NCBI GenBank assembly: GCA_948144175.1
Contig: CANXME010002486.1
Location: forward strand, 806,001 to 870,000
Length of the DNA: 64,000 bases
Reading direction: 5' to 3'
DNA from: Closterium sp. NIES-65
Taxonomy: Eukaryota > Streptophyta > Zygnematophyceae > Desmidiales > Closteriaceae
Numbering within the stretch: position 1 is the first letter of the stretch; the number at the start of each line of letters is the position of its first letter. The notes below the pieces were generated by a model. It was not told the DNA's origin, did no database searches, and worked only from the letters and a program-made list of their open reading frames with translations. Shown one piece after another: positions 4,512 to 60,963 of this stretch. Made by a program: the position numbers and the translations under genes.

Positions 4512-7500
4512 ATGGCTCCCAAGAAAGGCGATTCCGCCGGCGGAACGAGCGGCAAAGGCGGTAAAGCGGGGTCAGGCAAGCCGGCCGCCGCGGACCGAAA
4601 AAAGTTTTCCGTCAGCAGCATAGTGGTGGAGGAGAAAGGTAAAGGCGAAAAGAAACCGTCCGTCGCCTCTTCCGGCGGCGGCGGCGGCGGCGGCGGAGGA
4701 AAGAAATCGCGCGCTCCGCCGAGCAAAAAGCCGCAAGACGATTACCTCGCGGGCGTCGATCTCCCGCCGTCCGATGACGAGGAGGAAGAAATAATGGACG
4801 GCGCAGATGATGGGGAGTTTGTTGAAGACGACGATATTGGCGGATCCAAGGCGGGGAGGGGTCGCGGGCTTGTAACGGGGATGGGTAGCTTGCAGATGTC
4901 GGATAAGCAAGCGAAGAAGAAGAAGGAGAAGGAGCTTATGATTGAGCAAGCCCAGGAAGATGCGCGTAAAGAGGCTCTTAAAGCGGACGACGCTAACGCG
5001 TTTTCCGTCACTCTCGGTTCCCGAGTCGCGGATGACCCTTCGGAAGACGCGGACGGCGCGGCGGGAACTGCGGCCGACGCGAACGTGCGGGATATTAAAG
5101 TGGAGAACTTTTCGGTCTCGGCGCGTGGGAAGGAACTATTCAGGAACGCGTCGCTAACTATCGTCCACGGAAGGCGGTACGGGTTAGTGGGTCCTAACGG
5201 CAAGGGTAAATCGACGGTGATGAAGCTGCTTGCGCGGCGGCAGCTGCCGGTGCCACGTGGCATTGACGTGCTCTTAGTGGAGCAGGAGGTGGTTGGGGAC
5301 GAAAGATCCGCGTTAGAAGCTGTCGTGACTGCAGATCTGAAGCTGGTGAAGTTACGCGAGGAAGAAGCGCGGTTACGAGCGATTTTGGATAAATATTCGC
5401 ATGCGGAAGGGGAAGGGGAGAAGGGGACGAGAGGAGGCGGAGAAGGGGAGGAAAAGGAAAAGCAGGGAGAGAGTAGCGAAACGGCGGAAGAAACGGCGGA
5501 GAGTGGGACGACAGGGAAGGGGAAAGGGAAAGGGAGGAAGAAGGGCGCGCAAGCAGCAGCAGCTGCTGCTGCTGCCGCCGCCGCCGCCGCAGCCGCGACG
5601 GCGGAGGAGGAGGAAGACGAGGCGAGCGCAAGCGAGAAGCTTGCGCACGTGTACGACGAGATGCGGGAGATCGGCGCGGAAGCGGCGGAAGCGCGCGCGT
5701 CGAAGATCCTCGCGGGTTTAGGGTTTACAAAGGAGATGCAGGCGCGGTCGACGAAATCGTTCTCTGGGGGGTGGCGCATGCGAATTTCGCTCGCGCGCGC
5801 GCTTTACGTGCAGCCGACGCTGCTGCTGCTGGATGAGCCTACTAATCACCTGGATCTTAGGGCGGTCTTATGGTTGGAGGAGTATTTGATGAGGTGGAAG
5901 AAGACTTTAATCGTCGTGTCGCACGATCGCGACTTTCTTAACTCGGTCTGCACGGATATTATTCACCTGCACGACGAGAAGCTGTTCTTCTACAAGGTAC
6001 GAGTCCGGCTGTCTCTGAATCATTGTTTCGAGGGAAGCTTCAACGCAGTCTGCACGGATGTTATCCACTTGCACGAGAAGCTGTTTCTGTAGAAGGTAAG
6101 AGCGGCTGTTTATTGTGTCATTGTTTTGAGGGTGATGGTAGTTACCTACCCGATGCTAAGTGGCAAGGAACGCGGATTTCAAGCATTGCCTCCCTCTTGC
6201 TCTGTCTGTCTTTCTAGCTTCTTATTGTCCCTTTTCCGATGAATTTCAATCAATGTACGGGCAGAAGCGACGGGAGAGTACGACATATCACAGATATGTT
6301 TTTTTTTTTCTTTCCCGTTTCTGTTCTCGTTCTCGCATTTCAGGGTAACTTCGAGGGGTTTGAGGAGATGTACGAACAGAAGCGGCGGGAGAACAACAAG
6401 AAGTTTGAGGTGTATGAGAAACAGCTCAAGGCGGCCAAGCGGTCCGGGAACAAGCAGAACCAGGACAAGGTGAGCACCGGTACCAGGTAACCAGGTAACC
6501 AGGTAACCAGGTAATTACAGAGTGACCCAATTCACAGGTACCGGCAACCAGAGTTGGGGTGGGAGAAACAACAACAAGTTTGAGGTGTATGAGAAACAGC
6601 TCAAGGCGGCGAAGCAGTCCGGGAACAAGCAGAACCAGGACAAGGTGAGTGGAGTTGGTAATCATGTAATTCCAAGGGTATAGAGAGCAACAAGAAGTTT
6701 GAGGTGTATGAGAATCAGCTCACGGCGGCAAAACGGTCAGGGAACAGGGAGAACCAAGACAAGGTGAGTGGTGGTAACCGGGTAACTGCAACCGGAGTTG
6801 GCGTGGGAGAACAACAAGTCTGTGAGGTGCATGAGGTGCAGCTCAAAGCAGCCAAGCGGCCAGGCAACAGGCAGAACCAGTAGCAGGTGAGCACTGGTTA
6901 CCAGGTAACTGTAACTTGATGTACAGGTACTAGGGTGGGAGAAGAAGAACAAGTTTGAGGTGTATGAGAAACAGCTCAAGGCAGCCAAGCGACCAGGACA
7001 AGGAGGCTGGTAACCAAGTTACTGAGAGTAACCCAATACACAGGTACTGGCAACCAGGTGTGGGGTGGGAGAAGAACTAGAAGTTAAAGTATGAGAAACA
7101 AGAGGAGAACTGGGTAACCAGGTAACCAGGCTTTTTTGTTGTCAAGCATACCCATTAAACTCTCAAACCATCAGTAGAATCACAGCTGCATACTCAGCTT
7201 GACCCTGATTCCTTCCTAAACCCTCACAACCCGCACACCCCTTGTGGCAATCATAGGTCAAGGACCGGGCCAACTTAAACGCACAGAAAGAGGCCTGAGA
7301 GTGACGTTTGAACCAATTTTCAAACTCAACCCCTCACCATTCCCTCACAATCACCCCACCCCCCGTTACAATCACAGGTGAAGGACCGGGCCAAGTTCAA
7401 CGCACAGAAAGAGGCTCGGAAGGGCGGCAAGAAGAGCGCCAGCTCAGCCGGCGATGCGGACGACGACACGCCAGCCGAAGCCCCCAAGAGATGGCGGGAC

Positions 7501-9134
7501 TACGCCGTCGAATTCCATTTCCCTGAACCCACCGAACTCACACCGCCTCTGCTCCAACTCAAAGAAGTCTCCTTCTCGTATCCCAACCGGCCGGATTTCG
7601 CGCTTTCTGAGGTTGATGTAGGGATAGACATGGGGACGCGGGTTGCGATTGTCGGGCCGAACGGGGCGGGGAAGTCGACGCTGCTGAATTTGCTCGCGGG
7701 GGACCTGCAGCCGACGCAGGGGGAGTCTAGGCAGAGCCAGAAGCTTCGGATCGGGCGGTACTCGCAGCATTTTGTGGACCTTCTGGCGTTTGATGAGACT
7801 CCAGTGGAGTATTTGCTCCGGTTGTACCCGAACCAGGAGGGCCCGAGCCGGCAGGAGGCGGTTCGGAGCAGGCTCGGGAAGTTTGGGCTGCCGAGCCACA
7901 ATCATCTGACGCCGATCGTGAAGCTGAGCGGAGGGCAGAAGGCTCGGGTGGTGTTTACGGCGATCAGCATGGCCCGACCGCACATTCTGCTTCTGGATGA
8001 GCCGACAAACCATCTGGACATGCAGGTGTGTGTTGTTTAGGTATTTAGGTAATTTGTTTGGACAATTACCTATCAGCATGGCCCAGCCGCACATTCTGCT
8101 GCTGGATGAACTGACAAACCATCTGGATATGCAGGTATGTGTTGGTGATTGGTGCACGTAGTTAGGTCATTGTGTTGAGTCAGCGCGTAGGGTGTCACTG
8201 CGATCAGCATGGCCCGGTCGCACATTCTGCTGCTGGATGAACCAACCAACCATCTTGACATGCAGGTATGGTGTTATGCAGGTATATTGTTAATCCACTC
8301 ACTCTCATGTTTCATGCCAGAACCTTGGTGAAAAGTCTCGGTATGGTGTCTGCTGGTATGGAGGCATGCAGGTATGGTGTCTGCTGGTATGGAGGCATGC
8401 AGGTATGGTGTCTGCTGGTATGGAGGCATGCAGGTATGGTGTCTGCTGGTATGGAGGCATGCAGGTATGGTGTCTGCTGGTATGGAGGCATGCAGGTATG
8501 GTGACATGCCACTCACTCATGTTTCGTGCCTGAACCTTGCTGCAAACACACTGGTACTTGTCCGGGTGGTGTTCACTGCGATCAGCATGGCCCGGCCGCA
8601 CATTCTGCTGCTGGATGAACCAATCAAACCATTATCTTGAGATGCAGGTGTGTTTTGGTGATTGGTGCGGGAATCTAGGGCATGTGTTGAGTCAGTTACC
8701 TATTAGCATGTCTCGGCCACAGAGTATCGCCTCGCTGACAAATGCATTATACATGAACCATGCATTGGTGCACCACACCACGAACGAGCGGGGCTTTTGA
8801 GTCGACTCAAAAGTCGACGAGCGGGGCTTACAGTGCTAGTGGGCTTGGTGTCTGTGTCGCATGATTTGTGGCTCGTTCCCCTCAATCTTGCCTCCCCCTT
8901 GTCTCCCCGTTCCCTTGACAGAGTATCGATGCTCTGGCAGATGCATTAGACGAATTCACCGGAGGTGTGGTGCTGGTGTCTCACGATTCGCGCCTCATCT
9001 CGCGCGTGTGTGACGACGAGGAGAGGGCAGAGATCTGGGTCGTGGACGATGGCACGACCAAGAAGTTTCCGGGAAGCTTCGAGGATTACAAGCAGCAGCT
9101 GATCAAGGAGATTATTGCGGAGGTGGAGGACTAG
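4512..9134 (+). CDS. ABCF4: ABC transporter F family protein, ABCF4/GCN4-type (soluble twin ATPase)
   Basis: Exons 4512-5996, 6344-6469, 7378-8025 and 8922-9134, all joined in phase 0, give 823 residues. The start is the ATG in GCCATGG (Kozak-like). Two ATP-binding cassettes without membrane segments are visible. Cassette 1 has Walker [10 protein letters not shown] near residue 227, signature SGGWR near 418 and Walker [14 protein letters not shown] near 438. Cassette 2 has GPNGAGKST near 630, LSGGQKAR near 720 and [13 protein letters not shown] near 740. The linker reads [20 protein letters not shown] and the end is KEIIAEVED. Colinearity with Arabidopsis GCN4 (ABCF4) is close throughout. The extra length is an acidic, Gly and Ala-rich insert between Walker A and the signature of cassette 1. 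ABCF proteins bind ribosomes or translation factors; plant GCN4 is linked to 14-3-3/plasma-membrane ATPase control in stomatal immunity. Introns and 3' flank are full of partial exon copies. Confidence 0.93.
6042..7110 (+). repeat. Ghost copies of ABCF4 exons 1 and 2
   Basis: 6042-6095 copies the end of exon 1 (NxVCTDxIHLH region) including a following gtaag donor, but is short by some bases and has an in-frame TAG. 6241-6278 copies part of exon 2 (MYxQKRRE) upstream of the real exon. Downstream of exon 2 its 3' half recurs at about 6561-6644, 6682-6763, 6801-6886 and 6936-7002, with a weak remnant near 7070-7110. The first two downstream copies still end in caag|gtgag-type donors. Divergence increases with distance, as expected for decaying tandem duplicates. 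Conserved exon 2 itself remains in frame. Confidence 0.85.
7257..7298 (+). repeat. Ghost copy of the 5' end of ABCF4 exon 3
   Basis: Just upstream of real exon 3 (7378) a 42-base near-copy of its start is preceded by 'atcatag', mirroring the true 'atcacag' acceptor. It encodes the same KDRAN-like start but runs into a TGA. It is a 5'-half copy placed upstream, as in the other genes. Confidence 0.85.
8071..8647 (+). repeat. Three ghost copies of the 3' end of ABCF4 exon 3
   Basis: Copies of the Walker B segment ([14 protein letters not shown]..) with the following gcag|gt donor lie at 8071-8134, 8191-8265 and 8563-8647. The second keeps the reading [10 protein letters not shown] and the donor gtatgg; the third has a one-base disruption in the NHL region. 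The copies lie downstream of real exon 3 within intron 3. Confidence 0.88.
8340..8500 (+). repeat. 31-bp minisatellite carrying repeated splice-donor-like ends
   Basis: Five near-perfect copies of a 31-base unit (starts ggtatggtgtctgctggtat, ends ggaggcatgca) occupy 8340-8494 in ABCF4 intron 3. Each unit junction reads catgcag|gtatgg, the same as the donor of the ghost exon copy ending at 8265. The array therefore looks like local amplification of an exon-3 donor fragment and presents six consecutive candidate 5' splice sites. Confidence 0.85.
8785..8829. repeat. 20-bp perfect palindrome between 12-bp direct repeats
   Basis: Direct repeats cgagcggggctt at 8785-8796 and 8818-8829 flank, and partly overlap, the palindrome cttttgagtcgactcaaaag at 8794-8813. 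It lies in ABCF4 intron 3 between a decayed copy of the exon-4 start (8723-8750, preceded by ccacag) and the real exon 4 at 8922. Confidence 0.85.
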
Positions 9135-9230
9135 AATGAGAGGGTTTAGAGAGGGCGAGCGGGTGGGGGTAAGGGAAGTTGGGGTGGAGGGGATGGAGTG
9201 GAGTGCCTTTTGAAACGTCTCAGCAGGCAT

Positions 9231-9387
9231 GCAGCAGCTGATCAAGGAGATCATTGCGGAGGTGGAGGACTAGAATGATGAGAGGGGTGGGGAGCATGGG
9301 GATTAATGCCTCGTAAGTGGCTTTTGAGACGTGTCAGGAGTCAAGCAGCAGCTGATTAAGGAGATCATCGCAGAGGTGGAGGACTAG
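9231..9387 (+). repeat. Two ghost copies of the ABCF4 terminal coding end
   Basis: Beyond the real stop at 9132-9134 the last coding bases ([13 protein letters not shown] and the TAG) recur at about 9231-9273 and 9342-9387, nearly identical and each with the stop codon. They sit in the 3' UTR or just beyond it. Confidence 0.88.
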
Positions 9388-10983: not shown

Positions 10984-11600
10984 TTTGAGATGCTTCGAGA
11001 AGTTGCTGGATGTCTTGACGATGCGAGACGTAAACGATATTTTCAGAAAATAAGAAAGCGTCAAACAAAATGGAAGGAATGGGTGAAGCTCGTGCTTAGG
11101 CAAGCTGACTTGGAGGGGAGTCTTTTGCTGATGTTGCCGTACAGGCTATGGCCGCGTACAAAAAATCAACAAGAGAACTTACTCCTGTGAGTGGAGAAGG
11201 AATTCTGATTGAACGAGCTAGCTCTTATTTGAACAAATGCTGGACAGGAGGCGCACTTTGCGGATTATAGGTCTGGTCTGGTCATCAAACTGAAGAGCGC
11301 CTAAAATGCCGCAGAGTGAGGTGCGGAAATTGGACAATCATCTCTCGAGTTGACCTTTTTTGCTGCGCGACGCGATCACACCCACTGTTTCATCGTGATC
11401 ACGACACTAAGTCCTCGTCGTGAGAGGCGCTCCACCGTTCGAAGTGGTGCCAGCTCAGCGGGCGGCGACAATCGCTGCCACTCGTTCACCACTGGGTGTC
11501 TTGTTCCCGGACCGCATACTGTATCGAGGTCAGCGAACAATGGTTGGAGGAATTTGAAATGTACAGAACACGTACACTGAAGCTCATAGGGGAGGAGAAA

Positions 11601-12089
11601 CTGCAGATTTGATGTGGAACCGAACAAGGGCCAGCTGTGAGACATTGAATCTGGGAAGGGTGTTGTGTGGTGCGGTCGGGTGGTCGTCAGGTCACCTAAG
11701 TGGGGCCGAACCGCTAAGTTGAAGGGCAATACATTTCACTTTCACTTTCTGGCGCCGGTAGCGCCCGGTAGTGCTAGGTAGCGCTACCGACCGAGTCAGC
11801 AAGCTGACCGCGGGCAAACAAAATAAATCCCATCGCGACAGCATGCCATTCGGGAGCCTCAACCCTAAAATTTTAGGGTTGAGGCTCCCTCGGATGGCAT
11901 GCCTTCCGAGTGGGTTTTAGTTTTTTTCTTGCCCGCGGTCAGCTTGCTGACTCGATTGCACTGCAGATTTGATGTGGAACCGAACAAGGGCCAGCTGTGA
12001 GACATTGAATCTGGGAAGGGTGTTGTGTGGTGCGGTCGGGTGGTCGTCAGGTCACCAATGTGGGGCCGAACCGCTAAGTTGAAGGGCAA
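11601..12089. repeat. 129-bp direct repeats flanking a foldback element
   Basis: 11601-11729 and 11961-12089 are near-identical 129-base direct repeats exactly 360 bases apart (start ctgcagatttgatgtggaac). Between them lies a 161-base near-palindrome (11793-11953). Short open frames occur in both copies but look incidental. Confidence 0.9.
11793..11953. mobile_element. Foldback/MITE-like hairpin
   Basis: The outer arms are 25-base perfect inverted repeats (gagtcagcaagctgaccgcg.. at 11793-11817 against 11929-11953). The inner arms (11841-11870 against 11871-11902) meet at ccctaaaattttaggg with only small mismatches. The whole can fold into one long hairpin. No coding capacity and no clear short target duplication; the flanking 129-bp repeats take that place. 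Confidence 0.75.
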
Positions 12090-12546
12090 AAAATTTCGCG
12101 CGGGAACATTTTTGCCTCGTCGTCACACAATCACATCCCCTCCATAAATTTCTTGGCTACCATGAGGCGACATTGGCGGCACAGTTAGCCCGGGTATTAC
12201 GGGTGTGACATGGATGCGCGAAGCTCTGTGATTCGAGTTCGAAGACAAATGCACTTTTGACAGTCTGAACGCTGGGCTGGGTTCACGGTGATTACGGAAG
12301 AACACGACAAAGTAACAAGCAGTGGGATGTGCCGTACAGTAGCAACTCCAGCGGCACCCCACTCCACGAACAGTACCCCATTTGTCATGCTTCCGAAGTG
12401 ATCGCGGTCGCGGCACGAAATGCAGTTCTTCCTTCGTCCGCAAACTTCATGTTTCACCACGGTTAAATACGGCTGGTAGGGCGTGTTGGGATCTATTTTG
12501 CAATGCACTTACAGCAGTGAGGTTCCTTCGATGGTAAATTGTTATG

Positions 12547-12877
12547 TGTAAGGAAATTCCCTTTTCCTTACTCCGCATCCCTGCTCAACGCGTACATCAC
12601 TGTAGCACTTCAGTCAGCACCGTTACCACTCGCGACCATCGCATCATTCATCATCCCGCCATTTTCGCACATCGCATCCCGACCTCACGGCTCGGCTGGT
12701 AACCCGCGCTCCAGGCCTACGCTTCGACACTTTCCCAACCTCAGTCCCAGGCTCGTCGCGCGACCATTACCGTTACCACTGTAGTTTCGCTATATATTCT
12801 TCGCTCATGCCTTCGCTCATTGTATTCTTGCTTCGATAGTGCAATTCTCGTTCGTTCACTCAATTGCACTCGTAACA
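12547..12877 (+). repeat. 5' LTR of the gypsy element
   Basis: TG...CA-bounded. It contains a likely promoter TATA motif (ctatatattc, at about 12790-12799). The first 20 bases are tgtaaggaaattcccttttc. It matches the 3' LTR with six substitutions and no gap by my reading. Confidence 0.95.
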
Positions 12878-12879
12878 CT

Positions 12880-12893
12880 TGGTATTCAGAGCC
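12880..12893 (+). other. Primer-binding site of the gypsy element
   Basis: tggtattcagagcc, two bases after the LTR. This is the usual plant initiator-Met tRNA complement (tggtatcagagcc) with one extra T. Confidence 0.7.
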
Positions 12894-13059
12894 TACTATC
12901 TCATCTCGGACCGCGTCCACACCTTCGCTTCCCACTATCTCAATTTTTTGGGGGGGGTAGACGTCTCTCAGCGATACAGCACCGCCGCTCGTAGTGCTCT
13001 CTCGCAAGCACGCACGGCCACGACCGAGGCTCTCGCTGAGCTTGCCCGACACCCCCGCC

Positions 13060-14193
13060 ATGGCCGATTTCACGCTCGCCACATTGACGCAAGAGCAACT
13101 CGATCGTCTCGTGCGTCAACTGAAGGACTCGGCGCTCGAAATCGCGACTCTCACGGCGGAACGTGACTCCGCCCGTCAACAGTCTATGGTGAACATACCG
13201 ACGACATCCCACGCACCAACAAACGCATCTGCACATTCGGACGAGCCGATCATCATCTCGTCCGGCACACCAACACAACACGACAGCACGGGACAACGCT
13301 CAGGCGCAGCCAGTGAGGGCGCCGCCCAGCCGATGCCTGGCATGGGAGGAAACAGGATCGCACCAAGCCCACGGGAGCCCCAAGAAGTCCGTCGGCACGT
13401 GGAATTTGCGGCGACAAGTGGCGAACACTCCAACATGGCACCGATGCCGCTCAATCCGCAACGCCCGCCCTGCTTCGACCCAAGTCAACGCGGCGGTCCG
13501 ACAGTTCAATCGTGGGTCTTCACGATGAACGTTTTCTTCGACGCCAATTACGTCGAGTCGGACGCCGCAAAGATCCGGTATGCGGTTTCACTGCTAAGGG
13601 GCCCCGCCATGGACTGGTGGCGAGTCATCGTGACGTCGCCACGCGCCTACGAGCCACCGTCGCACGAGGAAGGGCCCTCGGGTCCAGCTGTCACCTGGAG
13701 TTCGTTCTGCGAAACCGCCCAATACAGCACGTGGGATGCGTGGTGCGCAGGTCTTCAGGCGCGTTTTGAGCCGATCGCGGCTTCAATTTCGGCGCGTCCG
13801 AAACTGCGCACTTGGCGCCAGCTCGGGTCAGTTCAAGACTATACCAGCGGTTTTCTCGCACTTTGCGAGCAGGTCGGCTACATGCACGAAGCGGAGCGGG
13901 TGGACCATTACGTCGGAGGGCTGAAGCCGGACATCTCGCACGAGATAATGCTGCGCGGACTCTCTAATTTCAACGAGATTCTCGCGCTCGCCGAGAAGAT
14001 CGACATTCTACGCCGACCGAGACCGCGGTCCTATTACGGACATCGTCCTCGGGGACCGACCAAGCACGCCACTGTACATGCCGTCGCAACGAATGCAGTT
14101 GCCGCACCGTTTAAGGGGCGCTGCTTTGCTTGCAACAGGCCGGGCCACCGCAAGAGCGAATGCCCAGAGGAGCTGAGACGCCGAGGAGCATAG
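13060..14193 (+). CDS. Gypsy gag polyprotein
   Basis: 377 codons from the ATG in gccatggccg; the frame is open further upstream but without a better ATG. A central retrotransposon-gag capsid region is visible (about residues 140-310; WDAWCAGLQARFEP, QDYTSGFLALCEQVGY, VDHYVGGLKPDI). Near the C-terminus there is one CCHC zinc knuckle, CFACNRPGHRKSEC. It binds the element RNA and forms the particle. It is intact, and overlaps the pol frame, which begins by 14130 in a different frame, so pol expression would need frameshifting or an equivalent. Confidence 0.9.
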   Translation: MADFTLATLTQEQLDRLVRQLKDSALEIATLTAERDSARQQSMVNIPTTSHAPTNASAHSDEPIIISSGTPTQHDSTGQRSGAASEGAAQPMPGMGGNRIAPSPREPQEVRRHVEFAATSGEHSNMAPMPLNPQRPPCFDPSQRGGPTVQSWVFTMNVFFDANYVESDAAKIRYAVSLLRGPAMDWWRVIVTSPRAYEPPSHEEGPSGPAVTWSSFCETAQYSTWDAWCAGLQARFEPIAASISARPKLRTWRQLGSVQDYTSGFLALCEQVGYMHEAERVDHYVGGLKPDISHEIMLRGLSNFNEILALAEKIDILRRPRPRSYYGHRPRGPTKHATVHAVATNAVAAPFKGRCFACNRPGHRKSECPEELRRRGA

Positions 14194-17008
14194 CAGGGGA
14201 GGGAGTCTCAGAGGCAGGGAAACGCCAGCAGTCAGTAGAAGACGGGCCAACTACTGACGAGACTGCCTGCTCGCCCAACCACACCGACCCTCACCGAGTC
14301 ACAGTACCGATTCACGCCATCGATCGGGCTCGGATGAGTAAGGAGGGTACAGCGACGGATTGCTCAGTACTGATCTACGGGAAAATACAGGGAGCAGCGG
14401 TGAAGATTTTTATTGACGGAGGAGCAAGTCACAGCTTAGTTAATACCGCGACCGCAGGGAAATTACAGTTGACACTTAACCGATGCTTACCTGAGATAGA
14501 TGCACGCTTAGTCGACGGCACGCCACTGGCTATACGGGAAAAGGTGGAGAGAGTAAAAGTCCGCTGCGGAGGGAACTTCGGGTTTACACAGGAAATGCTC
14601 GCAACGACACTGGATGGGCACGACATTTTATTAGGACGTGATTGGCTGCGACGAAATAACCCACGAATTGACTGGACGACGGGTAGCTGCACAGTACGAA
14701 GTAGTGGTAACTGGGTCGTCCTACCTCGCTGGCAGCCACCCGAGTCTTCGACGGTCCAGGTCAACGCCATCACAATGAAACGGGCTGTCGCTGCTGGAGC
14801 TGACGTGTACGCAGTGGATATCGCATTAGTGGAAAAAGAGGAGCAGCCGAGTGATTTGCAGAAACTGTTGGCAGCCGTACCGCCCGAACTATAGGCACTA
14901 CTGAAACGGTTCCCGGGTATCTTTCCGGATGACTTACCGCAAGGGCTGCCACCTCAGCGGGCGCATGACCATAGGATCGAATTAGAACCGGGGGCACAGC
15001 CAACTGTACAGCGCCAATTTCGACTGACACAGCCCGAGCTCGACGAGCTAAGGAAGCAGTTAGATTACCTGTTAGAGAAGCAGTTTATCCGACCGAGCTC
15101 GTCACTGTTCGCCGCACCGATACTGTTCGCACCGAAAAAAGACGGAGGGTTTCGCATGTGCATCGACTACCGAGCGCTTAACAGGGTAACAGTCAAATCA
15201 CGATACCCCATCCCCCGCGCCGACGAACTGATCGACCAGCTGCGAACAGCACGAGTATTTTCGAAAATCGACTTACGGGGAGGTTACCATCAGATTCGGG
15301 TCGAACCATCGGACTGCGCCAAGACAGCATTTAGGACTAGGTACGGGTCATTCGAGTACACAGTGATGCCTTTCGGGCTGACCAACGCGCCTGCAACATT
15401 TCAGATGACCATGAACGCGGCGTTTAGGCCACTTTTAGATAAATGCGTGATAGTTTACCTCGACGATATCCTCGTTTACAATCGGGACAAGCAGCAGCAC
15501 TTAGTAGATCTCGAAGCAGTTTTTAAAGTTTTAGAGGAACATCGGTTACTCACCAAGGGCTCCAAGTGCGAGTTTTTTCGGGACAAACTAGAGTTTTTAG
15601 GAGGCTGGGGTAGAAATCGACCCTAAAAAGCTGGATACCGTAAAAGCGTGGCACCCACCGACGAACATCACGGAACTTCAGAGTTTTTTAGGTTTTGTTA
15701 ATTACGTTCGACGGTGCGTCCCCGACATGGCACGCTTAACAGCCCCGCTCACTGATTTACTGCGTAAGGGGGTCCCTTTTACGTGGGGGGAGAAAGAGCA
15801 TGCTGCCTTCTCTGCCCTGAAAAATGTTCTCTGTTCACCACCCGTCCTACGCATCGCTGACCCACACCTCCCCTTCGAAGTTGTTACCGACGCGAGTGAC
15901 ATCGCCATCGGAGCCGTACTGTTACAGGACTTCGGCAATGGCCTCCAACCCATCGCCTACGAATCACGCAAGCTACATCCACCTGAGCGAAATTATCCGA
16001 TACACGACCGTGAAATGCTCGCGATCGTGCACGCATTCAAAGTGTGGCGCTGCTACTTGACCGGCGCAGACGTGACAGTACAGACAGACCATCGATCACT
16101 ACAGTACCTTCGAGCACAGCCCCACCTCAACCCACGACAGATTCGGTGGCTCGATTTCCTCGAGTAGAATTTCCACTTTACGGTCACATATAAAAAAGGA
16201 GCCTCGAACATCGCCGACGCCCTGACCCGCCCCACTGCCCAGATCCATGCGATACTACTCGCACAAACCAGCCCGCTACTGACAGGACTATTTACCCACG
16301 GATATCAAACAGACCCATTCTTCACAGGAGGAAATTCGCAGCAGTTTGTAGCAGCCAAGGGAGTCTATTACGTAAAAGTTGGAACCGACCGCATCTGGGT
16401 ACCAGGGTACACACTACTACGGGAACTACTGTTACAGGAGGCACACGACGCAGTAACCTCGGGACATTTCGGAGTAGAAAAAACACGGCAGCAGCTGCAG
16501 CGATACTACTACTGGCCGGAAATGTTGACCGACGTGCAACAACACGTGGCATCGTGTCCCACTTGCCAGCTCATGAAGTCAAGCAGGAAGCGGCCGGCGG
16601 GACAATTGCAACTAATCCCACCCCCAGAGCGTGCTTGGCAGCAGGTGACGATGGACTTCGTCACGGGGTTACCGGCTGGGGCGAGTGGGCATGACGCGAT
16701 CCTGGTCGTCGTCGATCGACTAACGAAAATGGCACATTTCGTAGCATGCAGGAAATCAATCACAGCCGAGGAAATAGCCCGACTCTTCATCACCACCGTC
16801 GTTCGAGTGCACGGGATACCAGCGTCGATCATCAGCGACAGGGACACGAAGTTTACTAGCAATTTCTGGCGGAACCTGTGGCAGCAGTTCGGCACGCGAC
16901 TTCAATTCAGTTCATCCTATCACCCCGAAACCGACAGACAGACAGAATGGACAAACCAGACCATGGAGCAGCTGATTCGAGCCACGTGCGACGATCCAAA
17001 CACGTGGG
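14130..17008 (+). pseudogene. Gypsy pol, 5' part: protease, reverse transcriptase, RNase H, integrase (broken)
   Basis: The protease has the active-site segment IDGGASHSL (about 14410-14440; Gly in place of the usual Ser after Asp). RT carries FSKIDLRGGYHQIRV, MPFGLTNAPATFQ and the catalytic VYLDDILVY. RNase H has VVTDASDIAIGAVLL and TDHRSLQYL. Integrase has an HHCC finger ending CPTCQ, then MDFVTGLP, ISDRDTKF and QTEWTNQ as the D,D,E positions. Breaks are TAG at 14892-14894 before the RT, a deletion/frame change at about 15600-15612 right after EFLG, and TAG at 16165-16167 after RNase H. Both stops sit where the family usually has Gln. The frame ends in the middle of integrase at the copia insertion. 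Confidence 0.92.
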
Positions 17009-17140
17009 TGAGAAGAATTGAACGAGAATGAAAATGAGTATGAACGAAGTGAGTACAAATAGGAAACCCTAATTGGGTTGTACCCCCTATGGGATACCCC
17101 ACTATAGCCTACACAAATAAGTAAGCTATATGTTCTGACA
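17009..17140 (-). repeat. 3' LTR of the copia element
   Basis: On the minus strand it runs from TGTCAGAAC to TTCTTCTCA. It is preceded (17141 upward, minus strand) by a purine-rich stretch with ggggg that may serve as the polypurine tract. Confidence 0.93.
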
Positions 17141-17352
17141 CACCCCCATAGGCAAAGTGGGGGAGAACAAGGGGTCACAAGACCAGTCAAGCAAAGCAAA
17201 GCAAAGCTCAGGGTGGATCACAAAGTCACCACGCATTCCGAGCACAAGTTCAAAGGCCAGAAGGCCAGTTCACATGCAAGATCATATATAGAGGTACACA
17301 AGAGTCAAGTAAGCAAGAGCAAGGGTATATATATGCGAAGGTACAAGCAAGG

Positions 17353-45635: not shown

Positions 45636-45643
45636 TATATAAG
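45636..45643 (+). promoter_or_regulatory. Possible TATA box for the GGT gene
   Basis: tatataag, about 670 bases before the first certain coding exon. If this is the promoter, the candidate first coding exon at 45395 is excluded and the translation start must lie between 45670 and 46312. Confidence 0.4.
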
Positions 45644-45956
45644 CGCTGCGGTTGACGTTACGGAGTGCATCCTAGCCAGGCTGGCTGTCCTTACTTTATC
45701 TTACCGCATCTTTATTGAAGAACTGTTTTTAGACGTCTCAAAACACTTCTTCAATCACGTTACGAAGTGCATCCTAGCCAGGCTGGCTGTCCTTACTTTA
45801 TCTTGCCGCATCTTTCGTTCTCAGCGCTCCTGTTGGCATTGCTAGCTGTAGCCTTTGCACACCGACCAGGCTGCCTCTCCAGAAAGAACCGGCTGGATTT
45901 CATGGTTTTGAACCTCGTTTTGTCTATCTTCAGGTCTATGCAACCTGACCGAACTG

Positions 45957-46280
45957 AAGTTTGATCGTTCTCCTCCATTCCAACCTTTGTGTTTCAGGAT
46001 TGCTCTTGACGCTGCTTGCTCTGGGTCTCTGCACCCTTACCGGAGTCGCGCTCCAGAGCGGTTGGTCTACCAGCTCGCTCCACCTTGTCGACAAAATACT
46101 GACTCAACTGAAAGTTCATTTGTCCTTCCATCCATTCCTTTTGTGTTTCAGGGTTGCTCTTGACGCTGCTTGCTCCTCTGGGTCTCTGCACCCTGACCGG
46201 AGTCGCTCTCCAGAGCGGTTGGTCTCCTGGGTCGCTCCACCTTGTTGACAAAATACTGACCCAACTGAAAGTTCATTTGT
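45957..46280 (+). repeat. Two tandem ghost copies of the GGT exon 2 start
   Basis: Two copies, about 155 bases apart, of the segment 'ttcag|g.ttgctcttgacgctgct..' through a following intron-like stretch lie directly upstream of the real exon at 46312, which is the third copy. Each encodes LALGLCTLTGVALQSGWS. The first two run into stops in the LVDKILT region. Confidence 0.88.
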
Positions 46281-46311
46281 CCTCTCCCCCATTCCAACCT
46301 TTGTGTTTCAG

Positions 46312-51729: not shown

Positions 51730-54700
51730 TCAGAACAACACAAGGAGTGCAAAGCAAAAGTAGGTAACGATGCACATGAAGGCAATGAGTGCTCGCACGT
51801 CGTCCGCTTGTGGGACAATCGCCACGAGGAGAGACGCTGCTGTCCGCGTGCACCATACTATGGCCACCGCTGCTGCCACTGCTGTTAACACCCCCCTGTT
51901 ACAAGCATGAAAAGGGACACAATGGTAGAAAAGTAACCAGTGTGTTACTACCTATACGTGTGTTGTGTTACACACCTGCAGGGGAAGAAGATGGAGACAG
52001 CGGAGTAGAGCACCATGGGCAGCAGCCCATGAATGTCTGCTCCTAGTTGACATTTTACATACCTACTGATGTGTCACACACCTGCGGTGCGAGGGAAGAA
52101 GATTGAGACGGCGGAGTAGAGCAGAGCACCATGGGCAGCAGGCCATTAACATGTTACCTTCACTTGAATGAATCATTGATCATGTGTTCTATACTTCCTG
52201 ATGTGTTACACACCTGCGGGGGAGTCGACTCGAGAGTCAGATTGATCATGTGTTTTATACTTACTGATGTGTGACACACTTGCGGGGGAAGAAGATGGAG
52301 ATGGCGGAGTAGAGCACCATGGACAGCAGCCCAAAGTCACCACTATTAATGTCTTGCAACTCTACACATGTGTCACGTACCTTCGAGGGAAGAAGATGGA
52401 GATGGCGGAGTAGAGCACCATGGACAGCAGCCCAAAGTCACCACCATTAATGTCTTGCAACTCTACACATGTGTCACGTACCTTCGAGGGAAGAAGATGG
52501 AGATGGCGGAGTAGAGCACCATGGGCAACAGCCCATAGCCAAAGATGGAGCAGCAGCGGTACAGGTCCAGGCCTGCCTGCACTGATCTGAGTGAGGGAGA
52601 AAAGTGGGAGAGTGTGGGGGCGAGAGTGGGGGAGAGAGTGGGGGAGGAGTTGGGGGAGAGAGTGCGGGAGAGAGTGGGAGAGGAGTTGGGGGAGAGTGGG
52701 AAGGAGACTAGGAAACAGCAGCGGAACAGCTCCCAATCACCGCATCTCTCGCTCCCACTCACCGCATCTCTCACTCCCACTCACTGCCCACCTCAACCCC
52801 ACTCACTGCCCACCTCAACCCCACTCACTGCCCACCTCACCCCCACTCACTGCCCACCTCAACCCCACTCACTGCCCACCTCAACCCCACTCACTGCCCA
52901 CCTCAACCCCACTCACTGCCCACCTCAACCCCACTCACTGCCCACCTCAACCCCACTCACTGCCCACCTCAACCCCACTCACTGCCCACCTCAACCCCAC
53001 TCACTGCCCACCTCAACCCCACTCACTGCCCACCTCAACCCCACTCACTGCCCACCTCACCCCCACTCACTGCCCACCTCAACCCCACTCACTGCCCACC
53101 TCATCCCCACTCACTGCCCACCTCATCCCCACTCACTGCCCACCTCACCCCCACTCAGTACGCACCTCGCTCCCACGAGAAGGTTGAAAACGGTGTAGAT
53201 GAAAGTTGATGCCACCACAGACCACCCGAGCACCACCCCAAAGTGCACCTTGGCATGCTGCCACGCACGACAGAATGGACGACATGGGAAAATAGAGGGT
53301 TATGGATAATCATTGAGTTGACTCAAAAATAGAGGTGTAAGGATAATCATCTCGGTTTCCACTAGGGCCGACATGGCAGAATTTCTCAACAAGTCGTACC
53401 ATGTGCTGGCAGAGGCCAAAGAGTACACAGAAGATGAGCGGGCCGGACAGGTCTAACTTGCTGCCCTGTACGGCTGAAGCTGTTAAGTGATGCTCTATCA
53501 CACCATGAGACGATTCGACGACACAAAACGTACCATGAGCTGGCAGAGGCCGAAGAGCACACAGAAGATGAGCGGGCCGGACAGGTCCCCATCGTCGTAG
53601 AGATCGATGTTGATTCGGATGGGGTTCAGAGCTGAGGCGGTCTTTCTGAGGATCTGAGGAATGTTGATTCCCAGCTCTGTTGGGGAGAGGAAAGATGTGA
53701 GGTGAAAGGGGAGTGGAGGTTAAGGGATAGCGAGAGGGGTTTGCCAAGTAATTTACATGGGTCACCACCACATCGTCGTAGAGGTCAATGTTGATGCGGA
53801 TGGGGTTCAGCGCCGAGGCGGTCTTCCTCAGGATCTGAGGGATGTTGATTCCGAGCTCTATTGTTGGAAAGACGCGGATCAAGGGACAGATAGGGAGAAA
53901 GGTGGGCGGTCAAATCTGATTCACATGAGGTCTCTATCGCATCGTCGTAGAGATCAATGTTGTGCGGATGGGGTTCAGCGCAGTCACGGTCTTTCTCAAA
54001 ATCTGAGGGATGTTTACTCCCAGCTTTGTTGGGGATGAGAAGTAGGTGAGGTGAAGGGAGGAGGTGAAGGGCGAGAGAGGGGGGTTTGCCATACCGCTGT
54101 CTGCCTGCTGAGCCGCGATGAGTGGACTCAATCGTCGCATCACCTTATAACGAGCTACCTTCCACCAGAGGCAGCTCGGGTTCAAACGAGCTTGCCCGCC
54201 AGACCCGTCGTACTGCTAAAGCCGCATCACCTTATAACGAGTTATTACCTTCCAGCAGAGGCAGCTCGTCTTCAAACGAGTTCTGGCCGAACAGCCCGCC
54301 AGACCCGTCGTACTGCGACTGGCCTCCGAAGCGAGGGCCCGCCTGCGGGGGAGGCGCCAAGGCACCTGCGAGACACGGGAAACGATAAACGAAAAACGAT
54401 AAACAAAAACGAGTTGTGACAAAACGTATTGTGACGATAACGGACGTGGGAGCCAGCGCACCTGCGAGAAACGGGATGCAAGATTCGAGAAGCTAAGAAC
54501 AAATCGTGACAAACGTGCTGTAACAGCGACGAGTGTGGGTAAGGGTAATGAGTGTACGAACCCCACCAGCTCCTGGGCTTTCGGTCATTGCCTTACTAAC
54601 CATATCGCCGCCACAACTAGCTCCACCCCTTTATAATCACAAAATTTCCACTTATACACTCACTGGGCTTGCTCATATCGAAAGACATAAACGCCATGTT

Positions 54701-54928
54701 GCCGCCTGGTGGACCACCAGCTGCCGGGCCAAATCCCGAACCTGGACCCGAACCTAGGCCTGGGCCGAAGCCTGGGCCCGAACCTAGCCCTGGACCTGGA
54801 CCCATTCCTGGCTGCGGCGGGAACGACATGGGCTGCTGCTGATGGGTTCCTTGTGGCCTTCGATGCTGCGGGAAGGTGAGATTCGGATTCGTATCGAAGG
54901 AGAGAGAGACATCGTCTTGAGGTCCCAT
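51730..54928 (-). CDS. YIP1/YIPF5-family Golgi membrane protein
   Basis: Six exons in transcript order: 54928-54664, 54365-54249, 53676-53534, 53257-53166, 52586-52482, 51895-51730; phases join to 295 residues. The N-terminal half is soluble and rich in Gly/Pro/Gln (a GPGLGSGPG-type run), with MAFMSFDMSKPS and the acidic FEDELPLLEELGINIPQI that precedes the Yip1 domain in plant homologues. Hydrophobic segments follow: GPLIFCVLFGLCQLM, FGVVLGWSVVASTFIYTVFN, FGYGLLPMVLYSAISIFF, AVAAAVAIVWCTRTAAS and CIVTYFCFALLVLF, with DLSGP and GYxLLPM as family landmarks. The protein ends just after the last helix, as in YIPF5/YIP4. It should act in ER-Golgi vesicle traffic with Rab/YPT GTPases. Introns contain about eight ghost copies and a 22-bp minisatellite. 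Confidence 0.88.
51975..52440 (-). repeat. Four ghost copies of the YIP exon 5 end
   Basis: On the minus strand the segment LLxMVLYSAxSIFFP with a following gtacgtgac- or gtgtgtaac-like donor recurs at about 52374-52440, 52266-52335, 52081-52145 and 51975-52031, downstream of the real exon (52586-52482). The spacing is about 100-190 bases. A gagtcgactc palindrome (52222-52231) lies between two copies. Confidence 0.88.
52175..52290. repeat. About 47-bp direct repeats with gagtcgactc at the junction
   Basis: attgatcatgtgttctatac.. at 52175-52221 is repeated at 52241-52288 (a few substitutions). The palindrome gagtcgactc (52222-52231) lies exactly between them. Confidence 0.85.
52790..53155. 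repeat. 22-bp minisatellite in YIP intron 4
   Basis: About 16-17 tandem copies of actcactgcccacctcaacc(cc) in nearly perfect register, with a few Ts and Cs substituted near the right end. Confidence 0.95.
53289..53350. repeat. 25-bp direct repeats around a gagttgactc core
   Basis: aaaatagaggg..ggataatcat at 53289-53313 recurs at 53326-53350. Between them is tgagttgactca (53314-53325), a near-palindrome of the same kind as in ABCF4 intron 3 and the YIP ghost array. Confidence 0.85.
53392..54030 (-). repeat. Ghost copies of YIP exon 3
   Basis: 3'-half copy (GPLIFCVLFGLCQHM with gtac donor) at 53392-53455, downstream in transcription. 5'-half copies (ELGINIPQILRKTASALNP) at 53762-53860 and 53936-54030, upstream in transcription. 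The real exon is 53676-53534. Confidence 0.88.
54140..54213 (-). repeat. Ghost copy of YIP exon 2 end
   Basis: On the minus strand, a decayed copy of the region encoding QYDGSGG..FEDELPLL with a ggtagct donor, downstream of the real exon (54365-54249). Confidence 0.82.
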
Positions 54929-55784: not shown

Positions 55785-57379
55785 ATGGCGCCAAAAACCA
55801 TCCTTATCACCGCGGCTAGTGGAGCGATAGGCAAGGCAACAATCAAGGTATGCTTCCCTTTCCCGCGTCGCCGTCTTATTTTGAAAGTAAGGCGTTCTAA
55901 GTCTCTCTATTTGCATTCCCGGCTTGCCCATTCGTCACCCGTCGCCGCGCCGTGATGTGTTTCTTTGTTGCTCTGTTAATCTCCTTTTGTTCCAGGCGCT
56001 CGGCAAGACACCTGACAGCTTCATCGTGAAAGCAGGCGTTCGCGACCCCACAAAATCCGCCGACCTCGCCGCACTCGCGCCCAACGCTTCTCCGGTCGCC
56101 GCTGACCCGCTGAAAGCGGCGGAAATCGCGGCAGCGCTTCAGGGAGTGGACTACGTGTTCGTGATCGCTCCTGGTCACGCCGACCGTCAGAAGATTTCTA
56201 TCGCCGCCATTGACGCTGCCAAGGCTGCAGGCGCGAAGGTGAGATGATAATGCTGACTGTGTTGCTACTATCAGCTGCTTTGAGCCAGTTTGTTTTTTGC
56301 AGTTGTCATTAAACGATACTGCCTTATTCTTTGCTCAACTTCCCCCTCCCCTCCACATCCCCCCCTCAACTTTCCCTCCCCACCTTCCCTTCCCCACTCC
56401 TCTCCCCCCCTCCCCCCTCCCCCCCCCCCCTTTTCCCCCCCAGTTCATCCTAGTCCTCTCAGTCTCCACTGCTGAACTCACCGACACGATTTTCGGCGGG
56501 CAGTTTGCGCCTGTGGAGGCACACACCAAGGCATCAGGCGTGCCGTTCACCGTCATCCGCCTGCCGCTGTTCATGGAGAATAACTACGGGTTTGCTGAAA
56601 GCATCAAGGATGCGAGCGCCATCTATTCGTCGTACGAGCCCGACAAGCCGTTCACTGCGGTTTCTGTGGACGGTACGTGGTTTAAGTGCATGCAGTATGC
56701 GGTTTTAGTGCATGCAGTATGTGGTTTTAGTGCATGCAGTATGTGGTTTCAGTGCATGCAGTATGTGGTTTCAGTGCATGCAGTATGTGATACTAGTGCA
56801 TGCATACTGATGTGCATCAATGTGCATTTAGGTGCAGCAAGGTACATCAAGGTGCAACAAGGTGTGTGCATCTCTGTCTGACTATGTTTTCTTCCTGCAC
56901 CCTTTTTTTCTCGTGCAGATGTGGGGGAAGCTGCAGCAAAAATCTTTGCTGATCCTGAGGCTCATAAGGGCAAGACTTACAACCTGACTGGGCCGTCCGC
57001 AACAGCCACTGATATTGCACAGGCCTTTTCCAATGCCCTTGGGAAAACAGTCTCATACAACTTCGTAAGCCCCTTCACCCAGCACCAAAGCACCAGTGCT
57101 GATACTGCAGCTCTGCTATCCTACTGAAGTTACCTAACATGTACGATGATGTTCTCCTCGCTGCTGCAGGTTCCTTACGAGGCGAGCAAGGATTGGTTGA
57201 CTCACAGTGGTTTTCCGGAGTGGCAAGCGGATGGGGTGATTGAGCTCTTTAAATCCATCAATGCAGGGGCTGTACAAACTAATGACCCTGCTAATGGGAA
57301 GACTCTTGAGAAAATTTTGGGACGTCCCCCAAGTTCAGTGAAGGCTTGGGTAGACACACATGCCGCAGCTTTCAAGTAG
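55785..57379 (+). CDS. NmrA-like NAD(P)-binding protein
   Basis: Exons 55785-55847, 55996-56238, 56444-56672, 56919-57064 and 57170-57379; phases join to 296 residues. The N-terminus is a Rossmann strand and glycine loop, TILITAASGAIGKATIK (GxxGxxG-type, residues about 5-21). Then VKAGVRDP, AEIAAALQGVDYVFVIAP, a central VIRLPLFMENNYG, and HKGKTYNLTGPSATATDIAQ. This is the atypical short-chain dehydrogenase NmrA/QOR2 pattern with no YxxxK catalytic pair seen. It is likely a cytosolic redox sensor or quinone/NADPH-binding protein; the substrate is unknown. A tandem paralogue, now broken, follows at 59157. Intron 3 carries a short tandem repeat of about 23-bp agtgcatgcagtatgtggtt units (56685-56800). 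Confidence 0.85.
56685..56800. repeat. Short tandem repeat in NmrA-like intron 3
   Basis: Five copies of a 22-24-base unit based on agtgcatgcagtatgtggtt, then gtgcatcaa-type drift to about 56860. Confidence 0.9.
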
Positions 57380-58573: not shown

Positions 58574-59326
58574 GTTTTTGTTTTCAAAAGTGCTGGCGAA
58601 CACCGCCAATGTCAGTGAGAGAGAGACAGACCAGAGAGTGCTAAGGTGCTGGAGTTCACCGACCTGGTCAAGCATTGCCGTTTAGAGCATACGTTTTTGC
58701 CGTCGGATCTGAGAGCAATCGACGGCGGATAGGAACATGTCTACCTGGCTTTTGAGACCCGACCCCAATGCGAGCCTAAACCGGTTTAGGGTGGTAGAGG
58801 TTCCACGCACACGCGCTATGGGTTGCTATTAGCATACGCGAATGGACTTGGATGGTCTTCTTAGAATCAACTGCCACGTCACAGATCTGAGTCCAGGTTG
58901 TCGTGATGTGATTAGAGTTATGTCATGTGCGCAAGGTACGCATTTGCGAATACACATTCAAAGTTATGTAGAGCCATGCATGCGGCGAACTTGGGTCAGA
59001 AAAAAAGAAAAACCGCGACCCGGATCCGTGAATGCGCTCCATATAAGTGTCGTCACTCCACTTTGACGACCGGACCCACTTTGTCTGTCACTCTGACGTG
59101 ACAGATTCTCAGAATTCCGTTCGAGCTATTTCTCCCGTCGAGTTTGATCTAGAACCATGGCGGTTAACACCGTTCTTATCACTGGAGCTAGTGGTTTGGT
59201 TGGCAAGGCGACGTTGAAGGTAGGAGAGCTTGTTGTCGTCATCTTTAGTTACCTTATTCGCCATCACCTCTGTTACCTCATTGTGAGGGACCTCAAAATC
59301 GCCTCTTTTTGAGGTGCCTAAAAAAT

Positions 59327-59420
59327 AAAGGTAGGAGAGCTTCTTGACGTCATCCGTTGTTACCCCATTCAACGACATTCAAGGTAGGAGAGCTTCTCGT
59401 CATCCTTAGTTTCCCCATTC
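59327..59420 (+). repeat. Repeated exon-1 donor region in the NmrA paralogue
   Basis: The donor and intron start (aaggtaggagagctt..gtcatc) of exon 1 at 59217 recurs at about 59327 and 59381, with a short hairpin (acctcaaaa..tttttgaggt) near 59290-59314. Confidence 0.8.
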
Positions 59421-59765
59421 AAAGAGACACTTGAATTCCCTTCACGGTTTGTGAGGCGTTCACACTGACCCGCATTCCTATCGTGTTCTGCATGCGCGGT
59501 TGATTTTCCTTCCCTTAAGGCTCTCGGACAGTCACCCGAACGCTTCACCGTAAAGGCTGGCGTTCGAAACCCCTCCAAATCCGCTGCTGATCTCACTGAG
59601 ATTGCTCCGAACGTCTCAGTGCTCGCTGCGGACCCACTGAAAGCAGCGGAAATTGCAGCAGCACTTCAGGGAGTGGACTACGTGTTCGTGATTGCTCCGA
59701 GCCATTCTGACTGCCAGAAGATCGCCATTGCCGCCATTGACGCTGCAAAGGCTGCATGCGCTAAG

Positions 59766-59900
59766 GTGGGCTGCTCATTACCATCACAACACCGTCAAGG
59801 TGAGCTGCTCGTTACTGTCACAACACCGTCAAGGTGAGCTGCTCGTTACTATCACAACACCGTCAAGGTGCTCGTTACTGTCACTTACCGCCAAGGTGAA
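59766..59900 (+). repeat. 33-bp tandem repeat after paralogue exon 2
   Basis: Three to four copies of a unit containing gtcaaggtgagctgctcgtt, each with an 'aag|gtgag' donor-like junction like the exon-2 end. Confidence 0.85.
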
Positions 59901-60963
59901 GGTGACCCACTCGCGTTGTGGCTGTTAGCTTTCTTCAAGAGACACCACTGGGTATTCTGCATCCGATACTCACCTTTTCCCTCCCATCATCTCCCCCTCC
60001 TCCCCTTTCGTCCACGCGTTGCTTACGTTTCCCACGACTCCATCGTTTCGTTCTCCTCACGTCGCAGTTCATCCTTCTCCTCTCAGTAGCCACTGCCGAA
60101 CTGCCCGACTTAATCTTCTCTCGGCAATTCCGGCCTGTGGAGGCACACGTGGAGGCGTCTAGCGTGCCGTACACCGTCATTCGTCTGCCATCCTTTATGG
60201 AGAATAACTACGATTTCGCAAAGACGATTAAAGAGTATAAAGCGTTTTATTCGTCGTACGAGCCAGACAAGCTATTCAGCCAGGTGTGGACGGTACGTGG
60301 TGTCACTGACAATCCGAGTGCAGCAATGCCAATGCAGGTGCACCAATGCCAATGCAGGTGCACAAACGCCAATCCCATTGCACCATGCAGATCCAGGTGC
60401 GCAGCTGTGTTAGTATTGTGTCTCCAGGAGTTTCCAGGGTAAAATTTGTGTTTGCAGGTGCAAGAATGTGCCGTCCATTTTGGTGAAAACACACGCATTT
60501 TGTTGCAAAAATGTGCGTTCTGACGGAAGAATGTGCATTCTGGTGAAAAAATGTGCATTTGCAATGTGTATACATGTGACCATGCATCCAGTTGGTGCAT
60601 ACTTATTCTTCTGTGCCATACTTGTGTTTGGCAGATGTTGGGGAGGTAGCAGCAAAAATATTAGCTGATCCTAAGGCTCATAAGGGCAAGACCTACACCC
60701 TGACTGGGCCCTCCTCAACTGCGACTGATATTGCAGAGGATTTTTCCAGAGCTCTTGGTAAAAGAATCTCCTACGAATTTGTAAGTACTTATCCAGTAGC
60801 AAGCTTGTTGTGGTTACTCTGTTTTACAAGCTGGTAGGTTTTAATCAACTCATTCCTTTTTTCCTACCCTGCCCTTGAGAATATTTTAGGACGTCCCCCA
60901 ATTTCCATGAAGGCTTGGGTAGATGCACATGTTGATGCCTTCAAAGCCCAAAAAAAGAAGTGA

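Follow-up and report, generated by a model that had tools for sequence, protein, structure and literature searches.

In a stretch of 64,000 nucleotides of the Closterium sp. NIES-65 genome (C2188:806001-870000, the whole of which is called the window below), partial copies of exons were found in the introns beside the exons that they resemble. These ghost exons (hereafter ghosts) follow a strict rule of direction: copies of the 5′ part of an exon, with its acceptor, lie upstream of it, and copies of the 3′ part, with its donor, lie downstream. The observation, first made in a preliminary description of the window, was confirmed. With moderate confidence, we regard the ghosts as neutral debris of local tandem duplication at a high rate, filtered by selection on splicing and by the better detectability of exon copies. 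The genome assembly comprises 874 Mb in 2,400 contigs, and contig C1566 holds a second copy of the window neighbourhood, 98.9% identical to the first. Since the samples of NIES-65 represent the haploid phase according to the passages of PMC10407611, the copy on C1566 was read as a segmental duplicate; extensive copy-number variation is described for the strain in the same passages. The two copies differ by 1,351 single-nucleotide polymorphisms (SNPs) in 118,959 aligned bases and by 65 indels of at least 15 bp.

Partial exon copies in the introns

Seven genes of the window were modelled with GT-AG introns, giving 45 exons and 38 introns. The models of the gamma-glutamyltranspeptidase (GGT), COBRA-like and malectin/LRR genes came from spliced protein alignment, using a protein-to-DNA aligner written for the analysis and proteins of other Closterium strains as guides. 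Those of the ABCF gene, a YIP-like gene and two NmrA-like genes (N1 and N2) were built from reading frames joined by hand, and exon 4 of the GGT gene was also merged by hand, as a stretch was missing from one guide protein. Between the segmental copies, 9, 2 and 60 SNPs fell at codon positions 1, 2 and 3 of the window models (3,511 sites each), a skew to third positions which argues that the models are sound. Three flanking genes (a kinase, LARP1 in two pieces and a lipase) were modelled more roughly and completed a set of ten genes with 51 introns and 102 junctions; a spurious 6-bp lipase exon was removed before the counts, and the long lipase intron probably conceals exons. YIP, NmrA, lipase, LARP1 and Raf-like kinase are presumptive names, assigned from motifs.

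Local direct repeats were searched by self-BLAST (E ≤ 0.01, at least 30 bp, low-complexity sequence removed), which returned 133 pairs in the window. At E ≤ 0.1 there were 142 pairs, versus 0 in each of five block-shuffled controls. The repeats covered 49.5% of the intron bases of the seven genes, 19.4% of the exon bases, 8.4% of the intergenic bases and 9.5% of the bases of a Ty3-type retroelement. Base-level marking gave 86 ghost intervals of at least 15 bp in the window, 19 of which were units of a 22-bp minisatellite, and the 60-70 copies first reported for the seven genes were thus a fair estimate. A stricter count, for which the splice site had to be reached and at least 20 bp of exon were required, left 46 copies at 25 junctions. 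In the ten genes, 86 partial copies reaching the splice site (44 donor, 42 acceptor) were present at 48 of the 102 junctions, with one to five at each. Ghosts made up 10,893 of the 32,536 intron bases of these genes, and 39 of the 51 introns contained at least one repeat family, leaving 12 without any. The median intron length, now 470 bp, was 205 bp after removal of the repeats; ghost copies have roughly doubled intron length in the studied genes. For comparison, the passages of PMC10407611 give mean intron lengths of 485-554 bp for four Closterium strains.

Among 94 classified pairs, 88 involved one exon end only, five were internal pieces and one touched both ends. The direction rule held in all 88 end-anchored pairs: 48 copies of left ends lay on the left and 40 copies of right ends on the right, with no violation, and the minus-strand YIP gene obeyed it as well. 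Decay with distance was likewise borne out, the nearer copy being more similar to the exon in 45 pairs and less similar in 13. The losses of AG and the new stop codons by which copies were said to decay were both seen in individual ghosts.

Geometry of the duplications

The direction rule had been presented as an argument against ordinary tandem duplication, but is the forced outcome of any tandem duplication that crosses a junction, because function is retained only by the copy that continues into the remainder of the exon. When a segment reaching from an intron into an exon is duplicated, the second copy is the one joined to the exon, and the first therefore becomes an upstream ghost with the acceptor and the 5′ part; a duplication over the 3′ end of an exon leaves a ghost downstream with the donor. 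With this geometric origin both strands and all genes obey the rule, and it is the frequency of junction hits that needs explaining. Within 1.5 kb, no inverted exon copies were found, and 36 other inverted pairs (each possibly double-counted) were present in the same 164 kb. Random templated insertion as a general origin was unsupported, given the lack of inverted copies and of rule violations.

Four whole-unit differences were present between the segmental copies (134, 196, 158 and 154 bp). The differing sequences repeated themselves over 0.98-1.57 unit lengths, and all four belonged to junction arrays of modelled genes; the 134-bp unit spans 72 bp of a real exon of the gene that we take to be a lipase. 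Further tandem length changes between the copies amounted to 96 bp in the long lipase intron and 46 bp in LARP1, concerned microsatellites, or, near -13 kb and outside the modelled genes, came in multiples of 27 bp. Two opposite 101-bp length calls in the YIP gene cancel. A CCT gene on the segmental copies C1794 and C43 carries 12 copies of a 66-bp seed with 0-2 mismatches and a spacing of 124 bp (one of 122), the last of the twelve being the real exon. Together with the whole-unit differences, this array indicates that arrays grow by whole units.

In the explanation that we propose, the ghosts arise by local tandem duplication, which is frequent, direct in orientation and mostly offset by 110-160 bp. 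After a duplication across a junction, the exon-joined copy would keep its function and the other would become an intron-side ghost; recurrent events at one junction would push older, more decayed ghosts outward, arrays would gain or lose whole units, and the ghosts would drift neutrally afterwards. Most duplications within exons, and those leaving too little intron at a splice site, would be purged by selection on splicing, a role that we presume. At the DNA level, the cause may be fill-in of staggered breaks or replication slippage, and the junction hit rate would lie at, or only moderately above, the random share.

Neutral variation of the ghosts

Between the segmental copies, the exon parts of ghosts had a SNP rate of 1.2-1.6%, versus 1.3% in intergenic sequence and 1.7% at third codon positions, whereas first and second codon positions of real exons were far below (0.26 and 0.06%). 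Sorted by the codon position of the source, ghosts had 20 SNPs at 1,702 first, 18 at 1,706 second and 35 at 1,700 third positions (1.18, 1.06 and 2.06%). The third-position excess is probably due to mutability; CpG sites in ghosts were about four times as variable as other sites. Differences between ghosts and their exons at positions 1, 2 and 3 (8.7, 5.9 and 22.3%) are what would be expected of neutral ghosts and constrained exons, provided that third-position sites have the higher mutability. By both the SNP rates and the codon-position pattern, coding constraint on the ghost copies is absent.

These data make it very improbable that the ghosts function as alternative exons or as decoy splice sites under selection, and we rejected that explanation. 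It might draw on the donor ghosts, which have G at +1 in 44 of 44 cases and T at +2 in about 93%, and on published gene models that incorporate ghosts. However, the acceptor G is retained in only 81%, so that splice dinucleotides are not clearly better preserved than the adjoining exon bases once acceptors are included, and the near-perfect GT was not taken as special conservation. Stops and losses of AG also occur in ghosts, and their bodies vary at the neutral rate without second-position constraint. The public NIES-65 protein models P0001 (GGT) and P0123 (malectin/LRR) contain ghost exon pieces, and the annotation of the strain may therefore be inflated.

A further explanation, that the copies are artefacts of assembly, would find its basis in the noisy PacBio reads from which, according to the passages of PMC10407611, the NIES-65 genome was assembled with Canu. 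Its probability is negligible in our view: divergence between ghosts and exons ranges from several to 30 percent, the separate contig C1566 has matching arrays with about 1% SNPs and a few copy-number differences, and the ghost of GGT exon 3 also occurs in a predicted protein of strain NIES-64.

Intron parts of the duplicated units

A number of observations, given here and in the following section, weigh against the ghosts being neutral debris of duplications placed at random. Among 30 well-preserved ghosts (exon part at least 88% identical), 27 showed ungapped similarity over no more than 20 bp of the intron, and significant similarity further into the intron was absent in 20; the unit of such ghosts, as spaced from the next copy, has room for tens of intron bases. 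Averaged over 25 well-preserved donor ghosts, the similarity profile fell from 0.94 in the exon to 0.3-0.4 past +16. Outside repeats, the window introns of the two segmental copies are only 0.6% divergent; ghosts and intergenic sequence diverge at twice this rate, and the introns are lower at CpG and other sites alike. Neutral decay alone should therefore not erase the intron parts first. Full-length units lie head to tail in the copy-number differences and in the CCT array; other ghosts often lose intron similarity within 20 bp. Between the first CCT ghost and the repeated unit, only about 10 bp of intron are alike, and the spacer of the unit had no significant match upstream.

Such sharp drops, the donor profile and the first CCT ghost would be consistent with ghosts that were refreshed from the exon by gene conversion, or that were founded as exon edge and splice site only by template switching. 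We consider this origin unlikely. In gapped alignment, with other genes as controls, the intron parts of 51 of 86 ghosts proved homologous (donors 30 of 44, acceptors 21 of 42), indicating that indels account for part of the similarity loss, and the view that well-preserved ghosts consist of exon end and splice site only was softened on this result. Some arrays repeat entire units, intron included. No runs of SNPs in the same direction were present in the six ghosts that had at least three scorable SNPs, and gene conversion on the time scale of the segmental copies was accordingly rejected. The loss of the intron parts means either that exon parts were refreshed, or that some founders copied the exon edge only, or that large intron indels are common.

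Frequency of junction hits

With repeat-free introns as short as a median of 205 bp, junctions are often hit by chance; the copy-to-copy offset had a median of 137-139 bp. The share of duplications expected to cross a junction, computed by enumerating duplication placements, was 28-30% with the present introns, 48-60% with repeat-free lengths, and 65-75% when a twofold detection advantage of exon copies was added to the repeat-free lengths. When the size limits were made stricter, to no less than 35 bp of exon and 40 bp of intron, the lowest value was 18%, and a two- to two-and-a-half-fold advantage with repeat-free lengths gave 52-66%. The preliminary description, which did not expect random duplication to straddle junctions so consistently, was too strong on this point, as shares of 18-75% follow from a unit of about 137 bp and a repeat-free intron median of 205 bp, according to the intron length, size limits and detectability assumed.

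The observed share was nevertheless above every expectation computed. Exon sequence was included in 53 of the 62 repeat families (85%), from the genomic left exon in 26 and the right exon in 27, and even at the most lenient settings the excess had p = 0.03 in the first enumeration and p = 4e-4 in that with stricter limits. The junction was also more central in the unit than under a uniform null without a detection limit (mean exon share 0.46; standard deviation 0.15 versus 0.23; 44 of 51 rows used). No founder event, from one unit to two, was seen between the segmental copies, the differences between them falling in existing arrays. Elsewhere in the genome, an adaptin profile search, read by eye and sensitive only to well-preserved ghosts, showed no ghost pair among 41 matches.

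As the real exon hardly changes, copies derived from it remain recognisable for longer, which exaggerates the link to junctions. In a detection-neutral count, exons and ghosts were masked and intron sequence alone was searched: 16 families continued an exon or ghost and 12 did not, although four of these 12 resemble pieces of ghost units by eye and the long lipase intron contains three. Against the 47-55% expected with repeat-free lengths, p was 0.18-0.5 for 16 of 28 families, 0.007-0.06 for 20 of 28 and 0.0007-0.009 for 20 of 25; with present intron lengths it was at most 6e-4. Copying of purely intronic sequence, named beforehand as the feature that would discriminate between the explanations, does occur, in nine of the 62 families or in 8 to 12 of the 28 found from intron sequence only.

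That splice junctions are preferred sites of duplication had been offered as the second option in the preliminary description, and we regard it as possible but doubtful; R-loops, nicks linked to transcription or stalled forks could be the cause. The observed share of 53 in 62 stands in its favour, the odds excess with the stricter limits on size being 3.1 to 27, whereas the detection-neutral count leaves the excess insecure (p from 0.5 to 0.0007 with repeat-free lengths). The position near the middle of the unit points the same way, but may reflect limits, in that short exon parts are undetected and intron-poor units should fail in splicing. All four whole-unit differences at modelled genes sit in junction arrays. 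With exons and ghosts masked, repeats of own sequence covered 18.7% of intron bases versus 4.1% of intergenic bases in the window, a contrast that shrinks when the flanks are included (13.1% intergenic). A stronger form, in which recurrent junction-targeted copying would put an exon edge of about 60 bp with its splice site into the adjoining intron, seed arrays that expand by whole units and drive intron growth in the lineage, is advanced here only tentatively, and we would not expect it to hold. In our judgement, most of the pattern is due to chance, selection and detectability; a residual few-fold preference for junctions is possible, though not secure.

Occurrence elsewhere and comparison with known systems

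Searches for two other families, read in the same way as that for adaptin, revealed ghosts outside the window. Three distinct ghost pairs, each present as well in a segmental copy, were found among 93 CCT matches and two distinct pairs among 135 kinesin matches, and all of them follow the direction rule. Kinesin-motor pieces were also present as adjacent inverted pairs on opposite strands (G000:C511:712945-713361, C1725:169179-169595 and C1052:556971-557362).

Minisatellites expand by whole units, and the CCT array has expanded in the same manner; unlike minisatellites, most ghost arrays have a conserved exon as their anchor and contain one to five units that have diverged. Small tandem duplications in plants have reportedly been studied by Schiml and colleagues. 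The passages of PMC8355091 attribute small direct head-to-tail duplications in plants and animals to break repair with fill-in of staggered breaks. These have direct orientation in common with the ghosts and may share small size and layout, but a link to splice junctions is not mentioned in those passages. A tandem duplication over an intron-exon boundary in the potato RdRp gene carries a polypyrimidine tract, the 3′ splice site and the start of the exon (PMC4974935) and, like the ghosts, crosses a junction; it is a single case, reported to have given rise to a new intron, whereas dozens of junctions are involved in Closterium. Tandem or mutually exclusive exons are likewise duplicated exon sequence beside the original, but those of PMC9013439 and PMC9741552 are whole, have both splice sites and are used in transcripts, whereas ghosts are partial, one-sided and decaying. 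Duplication of whole exons with both splice sites does not describe the ghosts, 88 of 94 pairs involving one exon end only. The segmental copy-number variation of the Closterium psl complex concerns the same strain and a duplication-rich genome; the passages of PMC10407611 treat genes and large segments and do not mention partial exon copies. In the parts surveyed of the literature on ghost, vestigial, partial or tandem exon copies, on tandem duplication with introns or splicing, on patch-mediated duplication, on Closterium and on introns of Zygnematophyceae, the pattern was not described.

If general in the genome, the ghosts would be a large natural record of small tandem duplications, with age, breakpoints and fate readable against conserved exons. 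The source of new intron sequence and the link of duplication breakpoints to transcription or splicing would become testable. In practical terms, ghost exons have entered predicted proteins of Closterium sp. NIES-65.

Ghosts in the individual genes

Positions in this section are those of the window, and genes and ghosts are on the plus strand unless stated otherwise. The ABCF1-like gene (4512-9131; exons 4512-5996, 6344-6469, 7378-8025 and 8922-9131) was recognised by a PDB sequence match to ABCF proteins. A ghost of the 3′ part of exon 1 with its donor lies at 6042-6095, and an array of the 3′ part of exon 2 with donors at 6567-7100 (6567-6645, 6681-6764, 6802-6887 and 6933-7005, with a fragment at 7063-7100). 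Exon 3 has a ghost of its 5′ part with acceptor (7257-7294) and ghosts of its 3′ part with donor within 8066-8647 (8066-8134, 8191-8265 and 8563-8647), and the last modelled exon has its 3′ end copied twice past the stop, within 9228-9384 (9228-9270 and 9342-9384). In the region of 8.0-9.7 kb, the segmental copies were too divergent for a clean reading.

The malectin/LRR gene (26627-34086) was modelled by spliced alignment to P0122, with which P0125 concurs on exons 1-12. Its 13 exons are at 26627-26720, 27528-27796, 28111-28290, 28697-28875, 29618-29820, 30507-30770, 31217-31355, 31874-31945, 32123-32194, 32452-32523, 32838-32912, 33383-33621 and 33995-34086. Acceptor-side ghosts belong to exon 2 (27380-27474), exon 4 (28564-28618), exon 6 (30007-30432, comprising 30007-30085, 30190-30271 and 30349-30432), exon 7 (31031-31112) and exon 12 (33117-33320, comprising 33117-33203 and 33235-33320, only the first of which entered the count of copies reaching the splice site). 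The exon 6 unit is 158 bp, and the segmental copy has one unit more. Donor-side ghosts were found for exon 3 (28392-28426), exon 4 (28967-29183, comprising 28967-29020 and 29130-29183), exon 5 (29897-29944) and exon 7 (31560-31595), and the 3′ part of exon 9 is copied downstream with an unrecognisable splice site (32260-32292).

The COBRA-like gene (40556-44120) has seven exons (40556-40831, 41343-41410, 41731-41875, 42275-42715, 43220-43309, 43643-43852 and 43977-44120). Acceptor-side ghosts accompany exon 3 (41624-41677), exon 4 (42138-42199, AG lost) and exon 6 (43496-43600), and donor-side ghosts of exon 4 lie within 42818-42988 (42818-42862 and 42952-42988). In the GGT gene (45395-50980; exons 45395-45482, 46312-46826, 48259-48928, 49189-49739 and 50591-50980), exon 2 is flanked by acceptor-side ghosts within 45998-46264 (45998-46107 and 46152-46264; unit of 154 bp, one unit more in the segmental copy) and by donor-side ghosts within 46946-47963 (46946-47090, 47176-47328, 47409-47499, 47730-47819 and 47876-47963, with an extra fragment at 48067-48103). 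The acceptor-side ghost of exon 3, the one present also in the NIES-64 protein, is at 48150-48205, and an array of five acceptor-side ghosts of exon 5 occupies 49935-50536, with junctions at 49977, 50105, 50196, 50333 and 50474.

On the minus strand, the gene that we take to be YIP-like (51733-54928; exons 54664-54928, 54249-54365, 53534-53676, 53162-53257, 52482-52576 and 51733-51895) has donor-side ghosts of exon 5 within 51976-52443 (52381-52443, 52280-52341, about 52090-52146 and 51976-52030; unit of 101 bp), of exon 3 at 53400-53453 and of exon 2 at 54159-54216. Acceptor-side ghosts of its exon 3 lie within 53768-54025 (53768-53857 and 53937-54025). The 22-bp minisatellite (52732-53176) adjoins an exon of this gene; its length in the segmental copy is greater by 1,867 bp. 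The presumed NmrA-like gene N1 (55785-57376; exons 55785-55847, 55996-56238, 56444-56672, 56919-57064 and 57170-57376) has a short donor-side duplication near 56742-56804, and N2 (59157-60951, also presumed NmrA-like, last exon uncertain) has donor-proximal duplications at 59328-59420 and 59831-59899.

Some indels between the segmental copies (11600-12097, 36557-36706, and 74412 and 75320 in the flank) consist of repeat, spacer and repeat in one copy versus a single repeat in the other, and may have arisen by deletion between direct repeats and not by new duplication. Insertions of 95 bp (at 48077) and 40 bp (at 72024 in the flank) in the segmental copy bear palindromic motifs like TTTGAGACGTCTCAAA, which resemble a small inverted-repeat element. 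The Ty3-type retroelement occupies 12546-25477, with 332-bp long terminal repeats that are 98.2% identical to each other. It is missing from the segmental copy, where its flanks are contiguous, and TTATG at both of its ends is a likely 5-bp target duplication.

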